Assembly: GCA_902826615.1 (NCBI GenBank)
Contig: CADEFN010000002.1
Span: forward strand, 310,001-374,000
Source of the DNA: an uncultured Gemmatimonadota bacterium
Lineage (GTDB): Bacteria; Gemmatimonadota; Gemmatimonadetes; Gemmatimonadales; Gemmatimonadaceae
DNA: 64,000 nucleotides
Reading direction: 5' to 3'
Part shown: positions 3,906-50,418 of the stretch, one piece after another
How positions within the stretch are numbered: position 1 is the first letter of the stretch
How the letters are laid out: each line of letters starts with the position of its first letter
Translations under genes and position numbers: made by a program
Notes under the pieces: model-generated
Seen by the model: only the letters and a program-made list of their open reading frames with translations
Databases searched by the model: none
What the model was told of the DNA's origin: nothing

Positions 3906-4718
3906 ATGCTGCGGGAGGTGGTGGAGTCCCGGGGTTTGGCCGCCGTCCGGGAGCCGGATCGCGCCCGCCGGGCCGACATCCTGCGGGTGCATTCAGAGGA
4001 CTACATCGACCGGCTGGAGTCGGGGCGGCTGACTGACGCCGAGCTTCGGCGCCTTGGCTTCCCCTGGTCGGAGCATCTGGTGGAGCGCTCCTACCGGGCA
4101 GTGGGGGGCACGGTTGAAGCCGCCGAGGCTGCCCTTCACGCGGGGCTCACCATCAACCTGGCCGGTGGCACACACCACGCCTTCCCGGACCACGGTGAAG
4201 GGTTCTGTGTCCTCAACGACGTCGCCATCGCGCTTCATGCGCTGATGGCAGCTGGCCGGGTGAGTCGCGCCGCCGTAATCGATCTCGATGTGCACCAGGG
4301 GAACGGCACCAATTTCATTTTCGCTGGCGACGAGCGGGTCTTCACCTTCAACATGCACGGCGGCCGGAACTACCCCTTTCACAAGGTGCCCGGTGATCTC
4401 GACATCGAGCTGGACGATGGCACCGGCGACGACGCGTACCTCGAGGCGTTAGGCGCGGCGCTCCCCGTGGTGCTGCACCGGGCGCGCCCCGACCTGGTGG
4501 TCTACCTCGCCGGTGCCGACCCACACGAAGGAGACGCCCTCGGCCGGCTCAAGCTGACCTTCGACGGACTGGCCCGGCGCGACGATCTGGTGATCAGTAG
4601 CTGTCGCGAGGTAGGTCTGCCCACGGTCATCACCATCGCCGGTGGATACGGACGGGATATCGCGTCCACGGTCGAGGTGCATCGCCGCACGGTGGAAGTG
4701 GCGCGCGGCCACCTGTAG
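3906..4718 (+). CDS. Histone deacetylase family protein (AcuC/HDAC11-like)
   Basis: 270 aa from the first ATG. Arginase-fold zinc deacetylase: tandem catalytic His (GGTHHAF, His90-His91), zinc ligands in DLDVHQGNG (Asp128, His130) and AGADPHEGD (Asp205), and the GGYGR glycine-rich C-terminal turn. Bacterial members deacetylate acetyl-lysine or small acetylamines. The ATG at 3906 falls inside a conserved segment: in the same frame the upstream codons read LPDGHRFPIAKYAM, which is typical HDAC N-terminus and continues to about 3820. The true start is therefore probably upstream at a non-ATG codon (CTG at 3819 is one option). Adjacent to, and convergent with, a secreted hypothetical gene. Confidence 0.9.
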   Translation: MLREVVESRGLAAVREPDRARRADILRVHSEDYIDRLESGRLTDAELRRLGFPWSEHLVERSYRAVGGTVEAAEAALHAGLTINLAGGTHHAFPDHGEGFCVLNDVAIALHALMAAGRVSRAAVIDLDVHQGNGTNFIFAGDERVFTFNMHGGRNYPFHKVPGDLDIELDDGTGDDAYLEALGAALPVVLHRARPDLVVYLAGADPHEGDALGRLKLTFDGLARRDDLVISSCREVGLPTVITIAGGYGRDIASTVEVHRRTVEVARGHL

Positions 4719-39301: not shown

Positions 39302-39719
39302 GGGGGGGGTGATTGGGGTGGTACGGCGGCGGTGTTCGGTATTCGGTGGGGTTCCAGATGCGTCGTGTTTCGCGCCGTCGATTCCCACCCAGGTTCCGTC
39401 ATCTCATCAACACCACGGCAATAACGTTTGCTTCGTCCGTGCTCCGTCCTTGCACGATCCGAGGTGGGACCTCAGGCTACTGTCCGAGCTCGATTGGGCG
39501 ACGGGTCTCTGCGCTGCCCCAGCCAGCATATGGTGTCCAACCTACCCAGACCAAACCGAGCTAGCGCAGATCCCATTTTGAGGCCACACTCTCTCAAGTA
39601 CGAGATAGAAGGCCCCCCTAGGTACTTGCGCGCCCGCTCCGTAAATCCGAGTCCGTCGACACGGGCGCAAGTCTCTAGCATCTATCAGTCAGAGTACAAC
39701 TACCAGATGAGATACGACA
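39302..39719. other. Gene-free 418-base stretch at the left border of the low-GC island
   Basis: No convincing gene. It starts with a G-run (GGGGGGGG), and its base composition drops toward the ATPase gene. I see no tRNA, integrase remnant or terminal repeat. The right end holds an imperfect inverted repeat. It probably contains the promoter of the following operon, but I could not assign -35/-10 boxes with confidence. Confidence 0.5.
39624..39672 (+). promoter_or_regulatory. Imperfect inverted repeat upstream of the ATPase gene
   Basis: ACTTGCGCGCCCG (39624-39636) pairs with CGGGCGCAAGT (39662-39672), leaving a 2-nt bulge in the left arm and a 25-nt loop. It ends 47 bases before the GTG start. 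It could be an operator, a 5'-leader hairpin, or a remnant of an attC-like stem, because the CGCAAGT arm resembles those found at 43579 and 47947; the flanking core boxes are missing. Confidence 0.35.
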
Positions 39720-41882
39720 GTGAATAAGCGGAGCTTTTCCCGGATTGCCGAATCGCTGCGCCAGTATCGGCGCGCAGACCTGGGCGACTTCGAGGGCGAA
39801 GTCGCGGGAAATCCAGTCGACGCAACGTATGTTGATCCGCTGCCTGACGACGCCGTTCTCCAGCTCGCGCTGTCGGGCAATACGACCTTCCTTCTTGGCC
39901 GAAAGGGCACCGGGAAGAGTACGATTTTCGCACGGGCGCAGTCGGAGATCCGCGCGAGGAATAAGAACGTCTCCGTTTACGTGGATGTTAAGAGCCTTTA
40001 TGAGGTTCTGGCGTCGGATGAGGCTGCGATCTCGCAGATTGCCGACGCGACAATTCTTCCTACGGTCCTTCAAGCACATCGGCTGAGAAAGGCGTTCCTC
40101 GGCGCGGTACTTGCCGACTTACTGAAGGAGGTTGACGAGTCCTTCGAACGCCTCTCCCTTTTCGACCGATGGGTCGGGAGGCGGCGTGAATACAACGAAC
40201 TTCGTCGAAGCCTTGACGCCCTTCGAACGCGCGTCCGTGACGGGCGCCTGACAGAGCAGGAGGTACCAATCCTCCGAACGATCTCACTTAAGACCAAAGA
40301 ACGAACCCAGCTTCGCGAGCGACAGGACGCACAGACAACCGTCGGTGGCAGCATCTCGTCGAACGGACCCGCGATCTCCGCGAATCTCAAGGATTCGACG
40401 TTTGAGGAAACACTGTCAGACAACGAGGTCTACCAGGCCTATTCGAACGCCGTGCTTCGTTCCTTCCCATATGCGGATCTCATCGGTGAAGTGAAGGCTC
40501 TCCTGGACGAGATTGGGATGGGTCGCCTTATCGTATTCTTCGATGACTTTTCCGAGCTGTCCTGGCTAAATCAGCGCCTGTTTGTTGATGTAATCCTCGC
40601 GCCACTCAACAATTCAAGCGGAGAGCTCATCAAGCTAAAGGTTGCCGCCTACCCGGGTCGCGTGTACTACGGCTCGATTGACCCAGGTAAGGTCGATACG
40701 GTGAATCTTGACTTCTATGTACTGTACAAGAGTCACGATCTGCAGAGCACAGAAGCGTCTGCTGTCGATTACTCGACACGATTACTCGAGCAAAGGTTCG
40801 CAGCATTCGGTGTCTCTGTTGCTGACTACTTGGACCCCGCCCTTACGACGCCAGAATTCATGAGGCTCATGTTCGAGGTAACGTTTAACGTGCCTCGGCT
40901 CATGGGGTACATACTTCACTATTGCTATCTAGATCGAATCGCGAAGAGCGATCCTATCACCCTGACAGCTGTAAGGCTCGCGGCGCAGAAATACTACGAT
41001 CACGTGCTACTTCGCTACTTTGATCGAATGAACAGGTTCGCTCTGGAGCCCTTCGAGCGAAAGCTTGATCGTCAAGCGCAGCGCGAACTTCTCAGAGCGA
41101 TTATAGACGATGCAAAGTCCACTCGTAGAAAGATCATCGCAGGGGAAGTAGGCGGAGAGTATTTCAAAGGGCTGAAGAATCCGCCATTGAGTCACTTCGC
41201 GGTAAGTCCCGATATGGAGAAGATTCTGTCCAGTCTCGAAATGAACTTTCTAGTTTCGAAGTACCATTCACTTCGCGACAAAGACCAGAAGGAGGTTTCG
41301 ATCTATGCGCTGCACTATGGACTCACCGAGACCGAACGGCTCGGATGGGGGTATCCGCGAGAAAGACGACTAGATCGAAACTACTTCATTCAACGCTGCT
41401 TCAATTTCAACACTACGATCCACACGTTTCTGTCCAAGCGACAGACTATTCGCTGCCCCGAATGCAACGCCTCCTTCGGATTGGACGAACAGAAGAGCCT
41501 AGAGCGGTACGGATGGCTGTGTCCCGAATGCCGGCTTGGCACCTGCGAAGTGGTCAGGCTTGGTTCCGAAGTTGGAGCTGATCTGTCCGCGCTAAATCGG
41601 CAGATTATGCTGGACCCGGTCGAACTTGAGATCCTCAGCACACTTGAGGAAGAGGAACGCCCGATGCGCGCCGGAGAGATCGCCTCCCTAATTGACGTCA
41701 AGTACCAGCTTGTTGGCCGTCGTACGAGCAAACTCAGGGAATCAGGCCTCGTCCGTAAGCTCGAGATTGACGGACACATGCGAAGTTCGATTACCCCGAA
41801 GGCGGAGTCAGTGTACTTCGATAAGTCCGGCGACGTCGAGTCGCCTGACGCAGATGTCGATCTCCCGGAGTCGGCGACCTAA
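39720..41882 (+). CDS. P-loop ATPase with C-terminal zinc ribbon and winged helix
   Basis: 720 aa, GTG start. Walker A FLLGRKGTGKST (residues 57-68) and Walker B LIVFFDD (270-276) define an AAA/STAND-like ATPase, followed by a helical region. About residues 579-604 hold a zinc ribbon, CPEC...CPEC (Cys579, 582, 601, 604). Residues 628-700 form a winged-helix domain (EILSTLEEEERPMRAGEIASLI, KYQLVGRRTSKLRESGLVRK). This suggests an NTP-driven protein binding nucleic acid. It may belong to the Sll1717-type P-loop ATPases, which I cannot verify here. It heads a low-GC operon with the DUF5131 and TcmP genes. Its codon use is more AT-rich than the neighbours. Function unknown. Confidence 0.85.
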   Translation: MNKRSFSRIAESLRQYRRADLGDFEGEVAGNPVDATYVDPLPDDAVLQLALSGNTTFLLGRKGTGKSTIFARAQSEIRARNKNVSVYVDVKSLYEVLASDEAAISQIADATILPTVLQAHRLRKAFLGAVLADLLKEVDESFERLSLFDRWVGRRREYNELRRSLDALRTRVRDGRLTEQEVPILRTISLKTKERTQLRERQDAQTTVGGSISSNGPAISANLKDSTFEETLSDNEVYQAYSNAVLRSFPYADLIGEVKALLDEIGMGRLIVFFDDFSELSWLNQRLFVDVILAPLNNSSGELIKLKVAAYPGRVYYGSIDPGKVDTVNLDFYVLYKSHDLQSTEASAVDYSTRLLEQRFAAFGVSVADYLDPALTTPEFMRLMFEVTFNVPRLMGYILHYCYLDRIAKSDPITLTAVRLAAQKYYDHVLLRYFDRMNRFALEPFERKLDRQAQRELLRAIIDDAKSTRRKIIAGEVGGEYFKGLKNPPLSHFAVSPDMEKILSSLEMNFLVSKYHSLRDKDQKEVSIYALHYGLTETERLGWGYPRERRLDRNYFIQRCFNFNTTIHTFLSKRQTIRCPECNASFGLDEQKSLERYGWLCPECRLGTCEVVRLGSEVGADLSALNRQIMLDPVELEILSTLEEEERPMRAGEIASLIDVKYQLVGRRTSKLRESGLVRKLEIDGHMRSSITPKAESVYFDKSGDVESPDADVDLPESAT

Positions 41883-41946
41883 CGTTGTGTTGGTGCATAC
41901 AGCCTGGACAGCTAGAGAAATCGTACACGTCTATTTGGAGGGATTG

Positions 41947-42723
41947 GTGGCAGACAATACAGGCATTGAGTGGACGGACGCGACGTGGAACCCAGTCACG
42001 GGTTGCACGCGTGTAAGCGCCGGATGCGACAACTGCTACGCAGCGACCCTTGCTAGCAGGCTTCTCTCCGAGCAGTACCGCAAGCGCGCCCCGGTGTCGC
42101 AGTCGCCGGAGGCGCGTAAGGACCCTTTCGCCGTGCGCCTTTGGCCTGAACGTCTCCTTGACCCGCTCCACTGGGCGCAGTCGCGCATGATCTTCGTCAA
42201 CAGCATGAGCGACCTCTTTCATCAGGACATTCCTGATGACTATGTGCGTCGGGTCTTCGAGATCATGCTCGAGGCTGATCACCATGTCTACCAAGTCCTC
42301 ACAAAACGTCCGGCGCGCGCGCTGCGCTTCTACAAGCGGAACCGCGACCTCTTCGGACAAACTGGGCAGATTCCAGAGCATATCTGGATGGGGGCGTCGG
42401 TCGAGAACCAGCGCGCGGTCTTCAGAGTCGACCAGCTCCGCCGACTGCCAGCTTGCATCCGCTTTCTTTCCTGCGAACCGCTGCTGGGCCCGCTCGCCCT
42501 TGATCTCAACGACGTGCACTGGGTCATCGCCGGAGGTGAAAGTGGCATTGTGCACAGGCCTTTGGACCTCGACTGGGCGCGGCTTGTACGGGACCAATGT
42601 CAGGCCCAAGGAACCGCATTCTTCTTCAAGCAAGTGGGGGGTCGGACGCCGAAGGCGCACGGCCGAATGCTCGACAACCGGACGTGGGAGGAATACCCCG
42701 CGCTCGTCGCGCAGCTGGCATAG
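41947..42723 (+). CDS. Phage Gp37/Gp68 (DUF5131) family protein, three-Cys motif
   Basis: 258 aa. The GTG at 41947 has a ribosome site GGAGGG 4 bases upstream and begins right where the family begins (GIEWTDATWNPVTGC). A Cx6Cx2C motif (Cys20, Cys27, Cys30; GCTRVSAGCDNCYA) may bind an iron-sulphur cluster, as in radical-SAM-like proteins. Later family segments are MIFVNSMSDLFHQ, YQVLTKRPARAL, IWMGASVENQ, RFLSCEPLLGP and WVIAGGESG, compatible with a TIM barrel. DUF5131 genes are known to occur beside tcmP genes, as here (3-base gap). The biochemical activity is unknown. Confidence 0.9.
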   Translation: MADNTGIEWTDATWNPVTGCTRVSAGCDNCYAATLASRLLSEQYRKRAPVSQSPEARKDPFAVRLWPERLLDPLHWAQSRMIFVNSMSDLFHQDIPDDYVRRVFEIMLEADHHVYQVLTKRPARALRFYKRNRDLFGQTGQIPEHIWMGASVENQRAVFRVDQLRRLPACIRFLSCEPLLGPLALDLNDVHWVIAGGESGIVHRPLDLDWARLVRDQCQAQGTAFFFKQVGGRTPKAHGRMLDNRTWEEYPALVAQLA

Positions 42724-42726
42724 CCA

Positions 42727-43575
42727 ATGGCAACCGACACCTTCCTCCGGCAGCTTTCGGACGACGGTCTGCATCTGCCTGAGATCAAGCTCCATTCGCT
42801 TGAGAAGCTCCAGCGCCACAACTACTACGCGCGAGTTTTCGCGACAGCAATGCGCAAGAAGTGGCCTCAGCTCGCGTACGTGGGCCTGTACTCCGGCGCT
42901 GGCCGAGCTCGAGTAGTTCCAGAAGGTGAAATCGTTGAGACGACGGCGATGTCCGTGCTCCGACTCCCGGACCCGTTCACCCACTACATTTTTGTCGATA
43001 GCGACCCCGACTGCGTCTCAGCACTCAAGCAAAGGGTCGCAGTTGTGCCAAGACGGAACGTTCAGGTAATTCACGGGGACGTCGCAGCTACGGCTTCAAC
43101 TGTGCGACAGGCACTACCGAGCTACGGCCCAGGGCGTGGGCTACTGTCCTTCTGCTTCATCGATCCATTCTCGACGGACTTCAAGTTCGACGTCATTCGA
43201 CAGCTGGGCGACCTGCGGATGGATTTCCTTATCCTGCTCATGCTCGGATGGGATGCGCGGGTCAACTTCACGCGCTACTACGAGGATACGCAGTCAACGC
43301 GAATCGCAGACCTCATAGACTGTCCTAACTGGCGAGCGGAATGGAAATCCCAAGGCTCTACTGATGTGGTCGGCTTTCTTTTGCGCAAATTCAACGAAGC
43401 GATGGTGCGGGTGGGCTACTTACCTGCCCCTGAGTCAGCACTGCACAGGGTGACTGCGTCAGGTAAGAATGTCTTTCAGTACGTGCTGGCCTTCTTCTCG
43501 AAGCACCAGCTCGGTCAAGACTTCTGGAAGGAGACCCTTGCTGGCAACAGCGACCAAATGGGGCTCGGACTGTGA
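42727..43575 (+). CDS. tcmP: Three-Cys-motif partner protein TcmP
   Basis: 282 aa, ATG 3 bases after the DUF5131 stop, so the two are coupled. N-terminal KLHSLEKLQRHNYYARVFATAM is the TcmP opening. A Rossmann-like core resembles SAM methyltransferases: VGLYSGAGRAR (glycine loop), YIFVDSDPDC (acidic after beta 2), VIHGDV, and FCFIDPFSTDF where DPF sits at the position of a catalytic DPPY-like motif. The family is defined by its genomic pairing with the three-Cys DUF5131 protein; its reaction is not established. An attC-like element starts 4 bases after the stop. Confidence 0.88.
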   Translation: MATDTFLRQLSDDGLHLPEIKLHSLEKLQRHNYYARVFATAMRKKWPQLAYVGLYSGAGRARVVPEGEIVETTAMSVLRLPDPFTHYIFVDSDPDCVSALKQRVAVVPRRNVQVIHGDVAATASTVRQALPSYGPGRGLLSFCFIDPFSTDFKFDVIRQLGDLRMDFLILLMLGWDARVNFTRYYEDTQSTRIADLIDCPNWRAEWKSQGSTDVVGFLLRKFNEAMVRVGYLPAPESALHRVTASGKNVFQYVLAFFSKHQLGQDFWKETLAGNSDQMGLGL

Positions 43576-43578
43576 GCT

Positions 43579-43712
43579 ATCTAACAGCGTGTTGCACTTG
43601 GCGGACCTGTCTGGGGTGGCCGACCCGCCGGGAACGTGTCACGATGCGACATGTTTGGCCCACGCGGGTCAGCCTTTGTTTGCTGGCCCGCAAGTGAACA
43701 CGGTCGCTGGAC
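43579..43712 (+). repeat. attC-like element A (integron recombination site candidate)
   Basis: Starts with ATCTAAC (fits the R'' box RYYYAAC), a 5-nt spacer, then TGTTGCACTTGGCGGACC, which pairs with GGCCCGCAAGTGAAC at 43685-43699 leaving two unpaired G bases. Extrahelical bases in an otherwise complementary stem are a hallmark of attC sites. After a 6-nt spacer, GCTGGAC (43706-43712) matches the R' box GTTRRRY except at one position. It begins 4 bases after the tcmP stop and ends 8 bases before the next gene. Confidence 0.6.
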
Positions 43713-43719
43713 GGACCAC

Positions 43720-44430
43720 ATGACGGTCCTCTACCGGCTGATCAGGATGCGCCTCTTGGGCATTGTCATCGTCACAGCCCTCCCCCCCCTCCTCACCGGC
43801 TGTACCTCGTTCGCGACCGTCCGCTCCGCCGAGATCCAGCCCGGCCCCTCCCTCGCGATCCAGGCGTCGGCGAGCACACCGCCGGGCGAGGTGGCTTACT
43901 GGTTCTGGTCGTACGACTGCGCGCAGGACTGCGACTACCCGGTACTCGGCGGTGACGTGGGGCTCACCTACGGTTGGGCGCGCCACCAAGGCCCCGGTGC
44001 CTTCGCCCTCGGTGTCGGCCTGAACGGCATTCACCCCTATGTGGACGGCTATCTCCAGCTCGGGACGGGACGTCGGCCCTTCGGGGTCGGGGCGCGGGTC
44101 GGGCCGTTGTGGAACTGGCGGGAGCACCAGCTCTATGGGCGTTTCGACGTGCCCCTGAGTGGGACTACACGGCTGCTGCTCAACCCGGCGCTGTTCATCC
44201 ACGAGGGCCGAGCCGCGAACGGCCAGATCCCTGGGTCGTTCATCGGGTTCGTTCAGGGCATCGGGCTGCTGCTCGAGGGGGATCATGTCACGTGGACGCC
44301 CGCCATCGCGCTCGTCGCAGGGCGGGCGCAGCGCAACAGCTATGGCGAGCAATTCGGGCCCGAGCGGTCGGTGTTCGGCGCGGCGTCGCTCGGCGTGACA
44401 TTCCACCGGCAGCGCATACCCACGCCCTGA
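43720..44430 (+). CDS. Lipoprotein of unknown function
   Basis: 236 aa from the ATG at 43720 (ATG 43747 also possible). Signal peptide with lipobox LLTGC, then beta-rich, glycine- and aromatic-rich sequence (GGDVGLTYGWARHQGPGAFALGV, GFVQGIGLLLEGDHVTWTPAIALVAG) of the kind found in small outer-membrane barrels. A CAQDCDYPV pair of cysteines could form a disulphide. It starts 8 bases after attC-like element A. No family recognised. Confidence 0.65.
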   Translation: MTVLYRLIRMRLLGIVIVTALPPLLTGCTSFATVRSAEIQPGPSLAIQASASTPPGEVAYWFWSYDCAQDCDYPVLGGDVGLTYGWARHQGPGAFALGVGLNGIHPYVDGYLQLGTGRRPFGVGARVGPLWNWREHQLYGRFDVPLSGTTRLLLNPALFIHEGRAANGQIPGSFIGFVQGIGLLLEGDHVTWTPAIALVAGRAQRNSYGEQFGPERSVFGAASLGVTFHRQRIPTP

Positions 44431-44456
44431 CGCTGTGGGGGACCTCCTCCCACGAC

Positions 44457-46127
44457 CTACACCGCGAAAGCCATCCCACACCGCCGCGGATCGGCACACG
44501 CCGACGCCACACGCGTGGCCGAGTCGATGTGGATCCCCTCGTACGTCCCGTTCATGAAGTGCCACGGCGACGTCACGAACCAGCGCGCCCCCAGCTTCGC
44601 CGCCGCGTCGCGCACCTTCTCATCGACATCCACCTCAATGTAGTTGGCACCAGGCACTGTGGTCGAGGGGCCGCCGAAGCGCGGACGCAGCACCGATTCC
44701 TCCACCGGCACACCGAAGTCAAGGATGTTCACCGTGTTTTGGATGATGTTCTGCAGCAGCCCCACACTCGGGCTCCCGGCCGCCAGCACTGGACGCCCCT
44801 CCTTCAAGATCATCGTCGGCGCCACGTAAACCGTCGCCCGCTCACCCGGCAGGGGCATGATGCGGAAGAAGTGGGCGCCTGACGCAGCAATGCTCACCCC
44901 CTTGGCGAAGAGCCCGTTCTGCCACGGGAGCGACATCACCGAATGCAGGATCGTGGCCACGTTGCCGCGCTTGTCGATGACCGTGACATGGTTGCTCCCG
45001 GGGGGCGGTGCTGGTGAGACCGGCTTGGGCGGTGTCATGCGCATCAGCTTGAGACGCATTGCCGCATATTCCTTGGAGACGATGAAGTCCACCGGCACGT
45101 CGTGTGTTGCCGGATCGGTGTGCTTCGCCCCTTCGAGATACGTCTCGTTGACGATCCGGTTCATCCAGTACAGCGTCTCGCCGGAGGCCGTGGGAGGGCC
45201 CATACGCTGCAGGTCGAGCTGCTCCAGCATGTTGAGCGACTCGATGATGTGCGTGCCGCCATTGTCAGGCGGCGGCGATCCGTAGACGTCGTACCCCCGG
45301 TAGGTGCCATGCGCGGGCTCCACCCACCGCACCTCATAGCGTTCGTAATCCTCAGGCGTGATCACGCCGCCTGCCTTCTTCACCGCCTCGCTGTAGGCGC
45401 GCGCGAACTCCCCCTTCCAATAACGATTCCCCTCCGCCGCCAGCCGCTCGAGCGTCTCTGCGGCCTCGACCTGCTTGAGGATCGCGCCCGGCGGGAGCAA
45501 CGCGCCCTGCGGCATATAGATGCTGCGCCCAGTTGGTGTCATGCCGATCGTGTCGAGCATGGCGAACATCTCGGCGTACAAGAACGGATAGATCGGGAAG
45601 CCGTCGCGCGCGTAACTGATCGCGGCGCGCATGAGCTCGGGGCGCGGACGCGAACCAAACCGCGCGTGCGCCGCTTCGAATCCTCCCCACCATCCCGGAA
45701 CGCCAGCGCCTCGTCCCGTCGCCAGGTCGCCCGGCGACCATCCCACAAGCGGCGCGAGCGGGGCGTTCATGCCACCGTTGAGATAGGAGAGCTTTCCCGA
45801 CGCGGCGTCGAAGTACAGCATGCTCAGCATGCCGGTGATCGTCGTCATGTGCGGCTCGGTCACCGTCTGCACGACCGATGCAGCGAGCGCCGCATCGCAG
45901 GCGTTGCCGCCTGCTTTCAGGATGTCGATGGCGGCCTGCGACGCATGCGGGTTCGACGTGACCGCGACTCCATCGGTGCCACGCGCCAACGGCTTGCGGC
46001 CAAAATACGGCGTGACGATCTCTCCCGGCGCCGCCGTCAGCGTCTCTCCCCTGGCCTCCCGGGCGGTCGCGAGCGCGAGCGCTGTGGCACCTGCGGTCTG
46101 GAGAAAATCTCGGCGGCTGGCGGGCAT
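44457..46127 (-). CDS. Gamma-glutamyltransferase-family Ntn hydrolase with Ser at the nucleophile position
   Basis: 556 aa, Tat-type signal (MPASRRDFLQTAGATALALA). GGT fold: NPHASQAAIDILKAGGNACDAALA near the N-terminus, GAGVPGWWGGFEAAH, a cleavage region, and DFGVPVEESVLRPRFGG at the C-terminus. The processing site of GGTs reads TTH with the first Thr as nucleophile; here it is SNH (Ser378-Asn379-His380, GSNHVTVIDKRGN). The GSPGG loop is GSPSVG. Ser can serve as an Ntn nucleophile, so activity is possible, but transpeptidation should not be assumed. Homologs include cephalosporin acylases. Confidence 0.85.
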   Translation of the reverse strand: MPASRRDFLQTAGATALALATAREARGETLTAAPGEIVTPYFGRKPLARGTDGVAVTSNPHASQAAIDILKAGGNACDAALAASVVQTVTEPHMTTITGMLSMLYFDAASGKLSYLNGGMNAPLAPLVGWSPGDLATGRGAGVPGWWGGFEAAHARFGSRPRPELMRAAISYARDGFPIYPFLYAEMFAMLDTIGMTPTGRSIYMPQGALLPPGAILKQVEAAETLERLAAEGNRYWKGEFARAYSEAVKKAGGVITPEDYERYEVRWVEPAHGTYRGYDVYGSPPPDNGGTHIIESLNMLEQLDLQRMGPPTASGETLYWMNRIVNETYLEGAKHTDPATHDVPVDFIVSKEYAAMRLKLMRMTPPKPVSPAPPPGSNHVTVIDKRGNVATILHSVMSLPWQNGLFAKGVSIAASGAHFFRIMPLPGERATVYVAPTMILKEGRPVLAAGSPSVGLLQNIIQNTVNILDFGVPVEESVLRPRFGGPSTTVPGANYIEVDVDEKVRDAAAKLGARWFVTSPWHFMNGTYEGIHIDSATRVASACADPRRCGMAFAV

Positions 46128-46276
46128 GGGCGACTCACTGGCAGCGGTTGGCGAGAACTTATCCCGCGCAGCAGGAGCCGTCGATGATCTGACGACCCAC
46201 AACCACGTGCGCGGCCATGGGTCCCAGCCCCACACTGGCCTTTCCGCCCCCCGCCGAGGCTGAGTACAATGTCCTC

Positions 46277-47458
46277 ATGACACGCCGACCCTCCTTCTCC
46301 GCAGTCGCCCTCGCGTTACTCGTTGCTTCGTCGCTCGGCGCACAGGCAACATCACTGGCGTGGCCCACGTCGACCCCGTCGAAGGTCGGTCTCAATCCCG
46401 CTGTTCTCGACAGCCTCCACGCGGAGATCACCGCCGGGAAGTACGGCAACATCGACCGCATGCTCGTCATTCGTCGCGGTCGAGTCGTGATGGACAAGAA
46501 ATATCCGCGCGACTACGACAAGATCTACGGCGACTCGGCGCGCGCCGCGTCGTCGCTGAACAACTCGCACGATCCCACCGGGCCCTTCAACTACTTCAAC
46601 CCCTGGTGGCACCCGACGTATCGGCGGGGCACGCTGCACACCCTGCAGTCCGTCTCCAAGACAGTGGCATCAGCGGTCATCGGTGTGGCGGTCACCCGCG
46701 GTGAATTCCCCGCACTCGACACGCCGATTCTCAAATACTGGGATACCACCGCTGTCGCAAACCTCGACGATCGCAAGCGACGCATCACCATCCGTCACTT
46801 GCTCACCATGACGGGCGGATTCGACTGGAACGAGAGCATTCCGTATAGCGATCCGAACAACACGGCCGGCGCGCTCGAGGCCAGCCCGGACTGGGGGAAG
46901 TTCACCATCGACCGGCCGATGATGCGCGAGCCGGGGACACAGTTCAACTACAGCAGCGGTGAAAGTGCGCTCCTCGCACACATCTTCTTCCGCGCCACCG
47001 GCGTAGACATCGAGGAGTACGCGGCGCGTCATCTCTTCACGCCACTCGGCATCACCAACTGGCACTGGAAGCGCTCAACCTCGGGCAGCGTCGACACCGA
47101 GGGTGGTTTGTATCTCGAAGCGACCGACCTGGCGCGCATCTGGCAGCTCTGGCTGCAGGGCGGCCGCTGGAATGGCAAGACTGTCGTGTCGGAACAGTGG
47201 GTGCGTGAATCCGTGACACCGCACATCGCGACCAGCGCGCGCGCCGGCGCGCCCAAGTACGGGTACAAGTGGTGGCTCTACAACAATCCGTTGCAGCCGG
47301 ACAAGTTCATCTGGGCCGGCTCCGGATATGGCGGTCAGTTCCCGATGGCCTTTCCCGATCAGGAGATGGTGGTGGTCTTCAATGCGTGGAACATCAGCAG
47401 CGGACCCACGCTGCCACTGCGTGCGGTGCAGGAACGGCTGATCAGGGCGGCGAAGTAG
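46277..47458 (+). CDS. Secreted serine hydrolase, beta-lactamase/PBP family
   Basis: 393 aa from the ATG at 46277, which gives a signal peptide (RPSFSAVALALLVASSLGAQ). Active-site Ser in SVSK (SxxK), a YSS tyrosine motif (FNYSSGESALLAHIF) and a C-terminal SGYGGQFPMAFP in place of the KTG/HGG motif. Conserved tryptophan-rich GYKWWLYNN precedes it. Similar to other exported class C-like esterases/peptidases; not a classical lactamase. Divergent from the GGT gene. Confidence 0.86.
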   Translation: MTRRPSFSAVALALLVASSLGAQATSLAWPTSTPSKVGLNPAVLDSLHAEITAGKYGNIDRMLVIRRGRVVMDKKYPRDYDKIYGDSARAASSLNNSHDPTGPFNYFNPWWHPTYRRGTLHTLQSVSKTVASAVIGVAVTRGEFPALDTPILKYWDTTAVANLDDRKRRITIRHLLTMTGGFDWNESIPYSDPNNTAGALEASPDWGKFTIDRPMMREPGTQFNYSSGESALLAHIFFRATGVDIEEYAARHLFTPLGITNWHWKRSTSGSVDTEGGLYLEATDLARIWQLWLQGGRWNGKTVVSEQWVRESVTPHIATSARAGAPKYGYKWWLYNNPLQPDKFIWAGSGYGGQFPMAFPDQEMVVVFNAWNISSGPTLPLRAVQERLIRAAK

Positions 47459-47493
47459 GAAGTCGGCTGTCGTTCACGGCCAGGAGCGCGGAC

Positions 47494-47937
47494 ATGAGGA
47501 TATCGCGACGCTCCCTGCTCGAGGCGATCGGCGCGGCGGCGCTGGTCACTGTTGTGACGACAGGGCTGCTGTGGCTGTTGATCGACGCCTTAGGGACGCC
47601 ATCGGCAGGGCCCCGGAGCGGCCACGGTGTCGGGGCCGATTTCGTACTCTATTTCATTCTTTGCTTTCCCTTGGCGTTCCTGTCGCTGAGCGTGTGCGCG
47701 CCGGTGTACCTACGCCTGCGGGCCGCCGGGCGCGCTACGGCGCAGGCGATCATGATTCTCGGCGCGCTAAGCGGGGTACTCACGATGGTTCTCTTCTGGA
47801 GCGTCCTGATGCGGGCGCGGCCCGAAGGGTCTTTGTTGGTGCAGTGCGCCCTGGTTGGGGCGCTCGGAGGCGCCGTCGCGGGGCTGACACTGACCCACGT
47901 GCATCGTGACCGCGCGGAACGGAAGGGTGAGCGCTAG
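47494..47937 (+). CDS. Four-helix membrane protein of unknown function
   Basis: 147 aa. Four hydrophobic helices (about 10-30, 48-72, 84-105 and 114-132), with short loops and a basic C-terminus (HVHRDRAERKGER). No cofactor or transport signature. attC-like element B begins 9 bases after its stop, as cassette genes are arranged in integrons, so it may be mobile cargo. Function unknown. Confidence 0.65.
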   Translation: MRISRRSLLEAIGAAALVTVVTTGLLWLLIDALGTPSAGPRSGHGVGADFVLYFILCFPLAFLSLSVCAPVYLRLRAAGRATAQAIMILGALSGVLTMVLFWSVLMRARPEGSLLVQCALVGALGGAVAGLTLTHVHRDRAERKGER

Positions 47938-47946
47938 CGGGTGGCC

Positions 47947-48087
47947 GTCTAACAACCTGTTGCACTTGGCGGACCCGTTCCTGGTCTGGCCGACCCGCCC
48001 AGGCCATCGTAGACTTCCCACATGGGTCGGCCCGGGCGGGTCGACCTCTCGTTCGCTCGGTCCGCAAGTGAACGGGAAACGTCATAC
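47947..48087 (+). repeat. attC-like element B (integron recombination site candidate)
   Basis: GTCTAAC (R'' consensus RYYYAAC), 5-nt spacer, then TGTTGCACTTGGCGGACC, identical over 18 bases to element A. It pairs with GGTCCGCAAGTGAAC (48059-48073), again with two unpaired bases. An inner stem joins GGCCGACCCGCCC with GGGCGGGTCGACC. The right core box is poor (GTCATAC at 48081-48087 against GTTRRRY). Its right arm overlaps the likely GTG start of the methyltransferase gene. Confidence 0.6.
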
Positions 48088-48925
48088 CGTTGACAAGGAG
48101 TGCGTTGCCGATGGAGTCGCGAGACCTTGTGAGGGCGCGACGGAAGCCGCGTGGGATCGCGCGGCCGCCAAGTATCGCGCCGAATTCGATCACGATGTCG
48201 CGCTGTTGCGCGCTGGAGGGCATGCGCTGTTGGCGCCGGAGCTCGAGTTGCTGGGCGACCTCACCCGCTGCGAGGTCGCGATCCATTTGCAGTGTTCGCA
48301 CGGGCTCGACGCGCTGTCCCTCGCCAATCTCGGGGTGACCACCATCATCGGTGTGGATGTGAGCCGCGAGATGCTTGCCCTCGCAACGCGCAAGGCGGCA
48401 GCGGTTGGTCGGGCGGCGCGCTGGATTCACGCCGAGGTCCTGGCCCTCCCGGCGGAACTCGACGCCACCGCAGACCTGGTGTACACCGGCAAAGGCGCCA
48501 TCCCCTGGGTCTCAGACCTGGGGCGTTGGGCCGGCGGCATCTTTCGCATACTCCGCCCCGGCGGCCGACTCTTTGTGCATGAGGGGCATCCCCTGAATTG
48601 GGTGTGGGACCCGGCCGCGCCGCACCATGAGCTGAGCGCGGATGGCCGTGGCTACTTTGACGCGGCGCCGAGGGCCAACGATGACTTTCCCGCTCGCGCC
48701 GTCGAGGCGCATACCCCGGCGGGGGAGGCGGTCCCACAGGCGTGGGAATACCAATGGACGCTGGGCCAGGTGGTGACGGCACTCAGCGAGGCGGGCCTCC
48801 GCATCGAGCGCCTCGCGGAACACGGTGCTCACTTCTGGCCGCAGTTTGCCACAATCCCGCAGGCCGAGCAGGCACGCCTCCCGCACAGCTACTCAGTGCT
48901 TGCGCGCCGCCCGGTCTCGACATAA
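48068..48925 (+). CDS. Class I SAM-dependent methyltransferase
   Basis: 285 aa from the GTG at 48068, which lies in the right arm of attC-like element B; the exact start is uncertain. Motif I is degenerate but placed as expected: VAIHLQCSHGLDALSLANLG, followed by TIIGVDVSREMLALA (acidic post-I loop) and a RILRPGGRLFVHEGHPLNWV post-motif. The C-terminal half (WEYQWTLGQVVTALSEAGLRIERLAEH) resembles small-molecule methyltransferases of the UbiE/Methyltransf_11/25 type. Substrate unknown. Confidence 0.8.
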   Translation: MNGKRHTVDKECVADGVARPCEGATEAAWDRAAAKYRAEFDHDVALLRAGGHALLAPELELLGDLTRCEVAIHLQCSHGLDALSLANLGVTTIIGVDVSREMLALATRKAAAVGRAARWIHAEVLALPAELDATADLVYTGKGAIPWVSDLGRWAGGIFRILRPGGRLFVHEGHPLNWVWDPAAPHHELSADGRGYFDAAPRANDDFPARAVEAHTPAGEAVPQAWEYQWTLGQVVTALSEAGLRIERLAEHGAHFWPQFATIPQAEQARLPHSYSVLARRPVST

Positions 48926-48990
48926 CCGTGGGTTGCATCGGGCGTGGCGGTCGTGAAGGCCGCTATGCTTGCAACCACACCCGGCAGTCG

Positions 48991-50418
48991 TTAGGCGGTC
49001 GACCCTCCCGGTGTGCCCATCATCCACGTGACGACATCGGCGGCCGTGTACGACGTGCGCCCGTTGAGCATGGCCTGCAACGCCTCGAGTTCGCTCCCCG
49101 ACGTGATAAAGGGTGGCTCCACTCCCTCGGACCGCCGCTGGCCGTACCCGATGGTGGCCAGCAGCCCGTTGCACAGGCATTGCCGCCCGGTCGTGTCTTC
49201 TTCCACGCCACCTTTCGCGATGTAGTCATCCACTGGCTCGGCTGGACACCGATATCCCAGTCGGCCGTCAGCCTGGGCGAAGGGAGTCCTGAGGTAACCC
49301 AGGTCGCATACGCGCTCCCGCTGGTGGCCCGCGCCTTCCTCATCCATGCGGACCACCTTGAACGGGTACCCGGTGGGAGAGGCCCGGGGATCGGTCGCCA
49401 CACGGACACCTCCGGCACCAAGCGCCGAGAGCACACGCGACTTGAGCGAGCGCTCGATGCCTGATTCGTCGCAAAAGGCGAACAGCGTGCCGACCTGCAC
49501 CCCACGTGCACCCTGCGCCTGTGCACTGGCGAGCGCCTCTGGTGACCCGGCGCCTCCCGCAACCCAAAACGGGAGCCCCAGCTCGGCGAGTTTGGCCAGA
49601 TCCACCATGTCGCGATCGCCATACACCGGCTCGCCCTGGGCATCGAGTGTCATCGTGCCACGCGGAGGAGCGTTGTGCCCGCCCGCAGTGGGGCCTTCGA
49701 CCACAAATCCATCCACGCGGCCGTTGGCCTTGCGGGCGAGTGTGGTGGCGAGCGAGTTGGCCGAAATGATGGGGAGAAACAGAGGCCGCTGAAGTTCGTT
49801 TGTCGGCGGACCATGATCGGACGGTGTGAGCGAGGTGGTGGTGCTTTCTCCGGCCGGGAGCCCCTCGACGTCGAGCCGCAGCTCGGTGCGTTCGTGCCGA
49901 GCCAGCTGGTCGAGCGCGCCGGGAATGTCGCGGGGGATACCTGCACCCATGAGGACCACATCAACCCCGGCGAGCATGGCGCCATACAACGTGGCCAGGT
50001 TGGGAAGCTGGACCTTGGTCAGCAGGTTCATGCCGATAGGTCCCGAGTGTCCCTCACGCGCCAGCGTGACTTCCACGAATGCGGCCAGCATCGCCACCTG
50101 CTCCCTGAACTTGCTGACATTCTGCCGCCACATGGGGAGGAGCGGAAATGCCTCGCCCGGAGCGAGCCCCTCGGACCGGAAGTAGCGACGCAGCACCTCG
50201 TCGGCGACACCGGGGAGCGGAAAGCGGGCCATGGCCCGCCGCATCGATCCGCAGGGGTCTCCCGTGGCCAGCCGGCGCAGCAGCAAGGTGTCGAGCACTG
50301 TGCCAGACACGACACCTAGCTGACCGCAGCGGGCCACTGCATTCGCGAGAGACCAGTTGGAGACTCCAACACCCATGCCACCCTGGATGAGGGGAGGCAA
50401 GACGAGGGCAGCCGACAT
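48991..50418 (-). CDS. Nitronate monooxygenase-family flavoprotein
   Basis: 475 aa. FMN-binding TIM barrel of the 2-nitropropane dioxygenase group: PLIQGGMGVGVSNWSLA at the N-terminus, the catalytic His and substrate region in VVEGPTAGGHNAPPRG, and FMN phosphate-binding FWVAGGAGSPEALA and GARGVQVGTLFAFCDES. The long C-terminal part contains cysteines (RCPAEPVDDYIAKGG, RQCLCNGLLA), seen in the subclass related to enoyl-reductase-like proteins of unknown function. Its stop codon TAA lies within a CGTTAGGC octamer. Confidence 0.85.
   Translation of the reverse strand: MSAALVLPPLIQGGMGVGVSNWSLANAVARCGQLGVVSGTVLDTLLLRRLATGDPCGSMRRAMARFPLPGVADEVLRRYFRSEGLAPGEAFPLLPMWRQNVSKFREQVAMLAAFVEVTLAREGHSGPIGMNLLTKVQLPNLATLYGAMLAGVDVVLMGAGIPRDIPGALDQLARHERTELRLDVEGLPAGESTTTSLTPSDHGPPTNELQRPLFLPIISANSLATTLARKANGRVDGFVVEGPTAGGHNAPPRGTMTLDAQGEPVYGDRDMVDLAKLAELGLPFWVAGGAGSPEALASAQAQGARGVQVGTLFAFCDESGIERSLKSRVLSALGAGGVRVATDPRASPTGYPFKVVRMDEEGAGHQRERVCDLGYLRTPFAQADGRLGYRCPAEPVDDYIAKGGVEEDTTGRQCLCNGLLATIGYGQRRSEGVEPPFITSGSELEALQAMLNGRTSYTAADVVTWMMGTPGGSTA

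Follow-up and report, generated by a model that had tools for sequence, protein, structure and literature searches.

The window analysed here, a stretch of 64 kb (C2:310001-374000), belongs to a genome of 5.92 Mb that is 99% complete and consists of 98 contigs. It contains a pair of homologous hairpin elements, named site 1 and site 2, each located downstream of a gene and separated from the other by a block of four genes (Table 1). Three genes precede site 1, with the left-end remnant of an insertion sequence (IS) of the IS110 family upstream of them, and a methyltransferase gene follows site 2.

Table 1. Features at and around the two elements; positions refer to the window.
Feature	Position	Strand	Evidence and remarks
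IS110-family left-end remnant	39361-39615	-	Non-coding region plus broken transposase start; homologous copies elsewhere
P-loop ATPase-like protein, 720 aa	39720-41882	+	ORF; opens the putative cassette that ends in site 1
DUF5131 protein (PADLOC PDC-M41B)	41848-42723	+	Pfam PF07505, E 1.1e-89; PADLOC, E 3.8e-90
TcmP-like protein (PADLOC PDC-M41A)	42727-43575	+	PADLOC, E 4.2e-13; stop just upstream of site 1
attC site 1	43579-43712	+	R'' ATCTAAC (43579-43585), spacer AGCGT, stem-loop, R' GCTGGAC (43706-43712, non-consensus)
Small lipoprotein/outer-membrane-like protein	43720-44430	+	ORF; starts 8 bp after R' of site 1
Gamma-glutamyltransferase	44457-46130	-	Pfam PF01019, E 1.1e-68
Serine beta-lactamase-family hydrolase	46277-47458	+	Pfam PF00144, E 4.9e-34
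Small membrane protein	47494-47937	+	Last gene before site 2
attC site 2	47947-48087	+	R'' GTCTAAC (47947-47953), spacer AACCT, stem-loop, R' GTCATAC (48081-48087, non-consensus)
SAM-dependent methyltransferase	48110-48925	+	Pfam PF13649, E 1.3e-11; directly downstream of site 2, accessory

Results

Genes at the two sites

The genes upstream of site 1 constitute a candidate anti-phage defence operon. In PDC-M41, a candidate system of PADLOC, the criterion is that M41A and M41B proteins are encoded by adjacent genes, and this is the arrangement of the DUF5131 and TcmP-like gene pair here, whereas the adjacent 720-aa ATPase-like protein is unmatched by any PDC-M41 model. The P-loop of this protein was read by eye; it had no Pfam match, and a search of 297 further genomes from the phylum (E <= 1e-30) found no relative of it. 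A homologue of the TcmP-like protein occurs in one of 147 other genomes of the family, there also beside DUF5131, and a search for the TcmP-like protein in the genome contigs found nothing. At 55-61%, the GC content of the operon genes is lower than that of their surroundings (63-69%).

The neighbours of both sites are accessory genes, rare or absent in relatives. Homologues of the lipoprotein-like protein behind site 1 exist only in G001 and G107 among the 147 other genomes, and no attC match was found on the contigs that carry them. Both the small membrane protein before site 2 and the methyltransferase behind it are absent from the 147 other family genomes. Within the genome, the former has a second copy (C8:746-1135) in a genuine array cassette, just before the attC at C8:1182-1316.

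Identity of the two elements

The first-pass annotation of the window had placed two homologous elements at the positions given in Table 1. These coordinates are right, and the words that it described as shared are real: a repeat search aligned stretches of 31, 19 and 15 nt with 90, 89 and 93% identity, in register at an offset of 4368-4374, and the in-register repeats (89-93% identity) span 43580-43699 and 47948-48073. Both elements start with RYYYAAC followed by a 5-nt spacer, and both right core boxes lie where they had first been read. Neither of them conforms to GTTRRRY; the G at the cleavage point remains, as does some of the pairing, and only the six bases after this G are off consensus, with the hairpin and R'' intact. 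Single-strand DNA folding, which the same annotation had proposed, gave -32.8 kcal/mol for site 1 (z = -2.86) and -34.0 kcal/mol for site 2 (z = -3.05), the z-scores being relative to dinucleotide shuffles. Two unpaired bases had been claimed for each outer stem; the minimum-energy fold of site 2 has them in the 5' arm, while that of site 1 has one. Such unpaired (extrahelical) bases on one arm are conserved in the attC consensus structure.

A search with site 2 alone returned about 20 clear relatives in its own genome. For a covariance model (R1), 26 attC sites were taken from this genome and two congeners, excluding the pair in the window. The consensus hairpin of the 26 aligned sites has 35 pairs, 22 of them with compensatory changes. 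Applied to the 64-kb window, R1 detected exactly the two elements, both at full length, site 2 with 106.2 bits (E 1e-22) and site 1 with 73.4 bits (E 4.8e-15); the next non-overlapping matches were at chance level (E 1.2 and 2.3). The first-pass annotation had taken low scores in such a search, or copies in the form of a transposon-linked palindromic repeat, as outcomes speaking against attC, and had looked to further copies in support. Both sites scored high instead, and the genome-wide R1 matches amounted to about 55 distinct attC-like places (73 rows, some being the same palindrome read on the opposite strand), grouped in arrays or in dispersed clusters, with copies in cassette arrays beside intI. 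Homology, structure and covariation thus all identify both elements as genuine attC sites.

Two other searches of the elements were less informative. Rfam contained no family matching them at gathering thresholds, and a generic scan for R''/R' patterns with folding did not single them out because it demanded near-complete R boxes. The stretch 48920-48996, which ends in GTTAGGC, was rejected as a candidate third attC: it scored 10.6 bits (E 2.3), a chance match in nearby coding sequence scores higher, and its GTTAGGC overlaps the stop codon of a convergent gene.

The substrate of the integron integrase is attC as a folded single strand, in which the cut falls behind the G of R'. In working arrays, the six bases after this G belong to the next cassette or downstream neighbour. 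Because these bases normally come from the neighbour, and because arrays also include GTTATGC, the window sites can be regarded as descendants of attC sites whose R' is non-canonical and which may be inactive.

Integron integrases in the genome

Two genes of the genome encode integron integrases above the curated NCBIfam cut-off for TIGR02249 (265 bits), at C2:944383-945321 (401.7 bits) and C16:10602-11408 (314.7 bits), and the translations of both match Phage_integrase. Each is followed by attC sites downstream on the same strand. The C2 gene, 586 kb from site 2 on the same contig, is the intI nearest to the pair. The initial statement that no integrase was in view is therefore correct for the 64-kb window and incorrect for the genome, and the divergent integrase suggested alongside it can be dropped, as with two integron integrases encoded in the genome neither a divergent nor a missing one is needed. 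An integrase above the cut-off was also found in 35 of 60 sampled relatives.

Class 1 integrons have a divergent arrangement of integrase and array. At C2:944383-946529 and C16:10602-16687, in contrast, the integrase gene points the same way as the attC array.

A CALIN-like reading had also been offered. It holds with regard to attC identity and the lack of a nearby integrase, and R1 found two attC sites, which is the minimum number for a CALIN (PMC9024848). The gap between the sites (43712 to 47947) is 4,234 bp, just over the rule of <4 kb between consecutive attC sites (PMC9668308), so that the pair is CALIN-like and not a strict CALIN; the term fits loosely. CALINs of Xanthomonas likewise have intI elsewhere in the genome (PMC12444791).

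Cassette ends in arrays and at the window sites

As a reference we used 24 array cassettes from this genome and one congener, each located between consecutive attC sites. These cassettes are 570-2,294 bp long (24 measured), and the R' box inside the arrays reads GTTA[GT][GC]C in 24/24. The bases after the R' G mostly pair with the R'' of the same cassette. This pairing extends beyond the box: a mean of 4.17 of the next six bases pair, compared to 2.30 with cassettes swapped (permutation p < 5e-5). The effect is weaker in three other genera (3.33 vs 2.15, p 5e-5). Complementarity of several bases past the R boxes at cassette ends was seen in arrays on C34, C36, C35, C40, C8, C16 and C4. Complementary ends of this kind would give the attC of the circular cassette a longer outer stem; we know of no description of complementarity past the R boxes at cassette ends.

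Cassette-end complementarity was then used as a tool for placing cassette ends, with an ungapped in-register test that replaced a gapped alignment, which was too noisy. Directly behind the G of site 1, the sequence CTGGACGGACCA agrees at 7 of 12 positions with the partner that site 2 should have (TTAGACGGCCAC), and 1.6% of the window positions match this partner as well as the flank of site 1 does. This is suggestive of a single cassette of 4,375 bp from 43707 to 48081, with four genes, one of them on the opposite strand, and about twice the length of the longest array cassette (2,294 bp). An upstream search for a left boundary of the type G|TTRRRY with complementarity to one or the other R'' was negative, and no convincing complementary boundary was found for the 5' end of the cassette ending at site 1; the flank on the IS110 side, AGGCCC, is unlike the R'' of site 1.

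No relative with an empty site at this locus was found. G002 was considered, where the M28 peptidase end and the nitronate-monooxygenase-like gene lie 2.67 kb apart, and rejected because of other genes between them. In 29 other genomes examined, the nitronate-monooxygenase-like gene has none of its window neighbours beside it.

Insertion sequences at attC sites

Copies of the IS110-family left end occur at C9:139120-139368, C3:635489-635667, G004:C8:253566-253685, G002:C87:4722-4820 and other places, and copies outside the window abut attC R' boxes. The C9 copy, located directly after an attC, keeps part of a DEDD_Tnp_IS110 transposase (Pfam E 4.6e-11), while in the window the broken start alone is left. 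At C3, the next attC has the R'' TTCTAAC, and the R' that this predicts is continued by the sequence following the IS end (AGAACGCGC); the IS thus appears to have inserted within an R' box. The outer flank of the left end is AGGC at C9 and in G002, and AGGC or AGAA in several copies, as though these had landed inside an attC R' box. These flanks and positions are consistent with an IS110-family group in the genus that possibly targets attC. An earlier reading of the 39361-39615 repeat as attI or cassette leader was rejected, as the repeat is absent beside intI and represents the left end of the IS110-family element.

Targeting of attC ends by ISs has been described for the IS1111 family (Tetu and Holmes 2008; Post and Hall 2009; both as cited in PMC11187229). 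Such ISs resemble the group seen here in their related DEDD transposase and in the insertion next to attC ends. In contrast, the window copy is a truncated left end, and target specificity in the group seen here is deduced from a few copies.

A second type of IS, with a DDE transposase containing DUF772, starts directly at an attC R' box (GTTCTAGGTGTAGAAAAAGC, GTTGAGGATGTAGAAAAAGC) at C4:238268 (L082:6261); a further copy at C6:214 (L077:206) was seen by its matching end sequence alone. Between an IS110 remnant and an attC on C3, a gene at L085:5691-6755 for a 354-aa protein, in which an Mrr-like restriction motif was recognized by eye, may be another defence cassette. At C6:968-3234 (L077), next to an attC, the genes for a hypothetical 456-aa protein and for an adenine methyltransferase of the D12 class (Pfam E 2e-14) are possibly a further defence-type cassette.

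Discussion

The two elements are very probably attC sites of the genome's own chromosomal integron family, each at the 3' end of a cassette brought by capture or rearrangement to a chromosomal locus far from the integrase. The cassette with the candidate defence operon (ATPase, DUF5131, TcmP-like) would end at site 1, and a segment with the small membrane protein gene as its last gene would end at site 2. The deviant six bases would mark an attC without an intact cassette downstream, either from the start, by insertion at a non-attC site, or later, by decay and loss of the neighbour. The integrase may still act in trans on both sites.

It is highly improbable that the elements are something other than attC, be it ordinary palindromic repeats, terminators or a repeat linked to a transposon. 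Both are strong hairpins behind genes and an IS remnant is close by, as such a reading would have it, but there is conservation of the R''/R' boxes and of the asymmetric unpaired bases, the IS repeat is distinct from the two elements, Rfam is without a match, and the homologous copies form arrays beside intI with one cassette between consecutive sites, an array context that already contradicts the reading.

For attC sites of the resident family, two alternative histories of arrival can be considered. The sites may be what remains of a stretch of at least two cassettes of an older array that rearrangement or IS activity left behind, with subsequent decay that extended to the R' boxes; this seems quite conceivable, if somewhat short of probable. 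It accords with the IS110-family left end at 39361-39615, copies of which abut attC R' boxes elsewhere, with the partial in-register complementarity between the sequence downstream of site 1 and that upstream of site 2 (6/9, 7/12), as would suit one cassette between the two, and with a methyltransferase gene behind site 2 that is accessory as well. A four-gene cassette of 4.4 kb, however, is far outside the range measured in arrays, and the GC content of 63-69% over 43720-47937 is chromosome-like. Alternatively, the genome's own integrase may have inserted one or two cassettes separately at non-attC (attG-like) positions, each R' then consisting of the G plus chromosomal flank, a history that we put forward only tentatively. 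Integron secondary sites follow the loose rule GNT. The G|CT of site 1 fits it, and G|CT recurs at the isolated sites C3:636790 (GCTAGAC) and G004:C8 (GCTCGGC); moreover, the deviation is limited to the six bases after the cleavage G, an integrase gene resides on the same contig, and off-target insertion by an IntI encoded elsewhere in the genome is one proposed origin of CALINs (PMC8618304). Against separate insertion stand the G|TC of site 2, which misfits GNT, and the lack of both a complementary left boundary upstream and an empty site in relatives. We consider it unlikely that the integrase delivers large multi-gene cassettes, here the three-gene candidate defence operon and the four-gene block, to non-attC positions hundreds of kilobases away, with attC-targeting IS110-family elements then fixing them.

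Compared to known systems, the sites resemble the attC sites of sedentary chromosomal integrons in the R'' box, the 5-nt spacer, the imperfect hairpin with unpaired bases on one arm and a central stem, in their position 3' of genes, and in belonging to a family conserved within an intI-bearing genome. They differ from those in an R' that is not GTTRRRY and in lying apart from the arrays. Insertion of cassettes at attG sites is reported by Loot et al. (Nat Microbiol 2024, as cited in PMC11023631). The likeness consists in cassette-type units outside the integron platform, whereas at the window neither a left boundary nor an empty site was found. The attC sites, CALINs, integrase-remote attC clusters, integron defence cassettes and attC-targeting ISs are all described (PMC9024848, PMC12444791, PMC11187229, PMC8618304), and integrons in the phylum Gemmatimonadota, where this genome may belong judging from its genes, are listed (PMC8618304). 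The pair is a known kind of dispersed integron fragment and not a new system.

The locus shows attC sites of a single family lying dispersed in a genome whose integrase is encoded at another place, in a group with little-described integrons. Here an attC site is associated with a candidate phage-defence operon and with an IS110-family element of a kind found abutting attC sites. In the case of off-target arrival, the cassettes would provide a natural counterpart to attG insertion in the laboratory.

Several contigs, including C2, C34, C36 and C35, end shortly behind a repeat that follows an attC (GTTAGGCAGAGTTCCTCACAGAAC...GGTCTCCGACTGC); this repeat is probably a multi-copy cassette that fragments the assembly.
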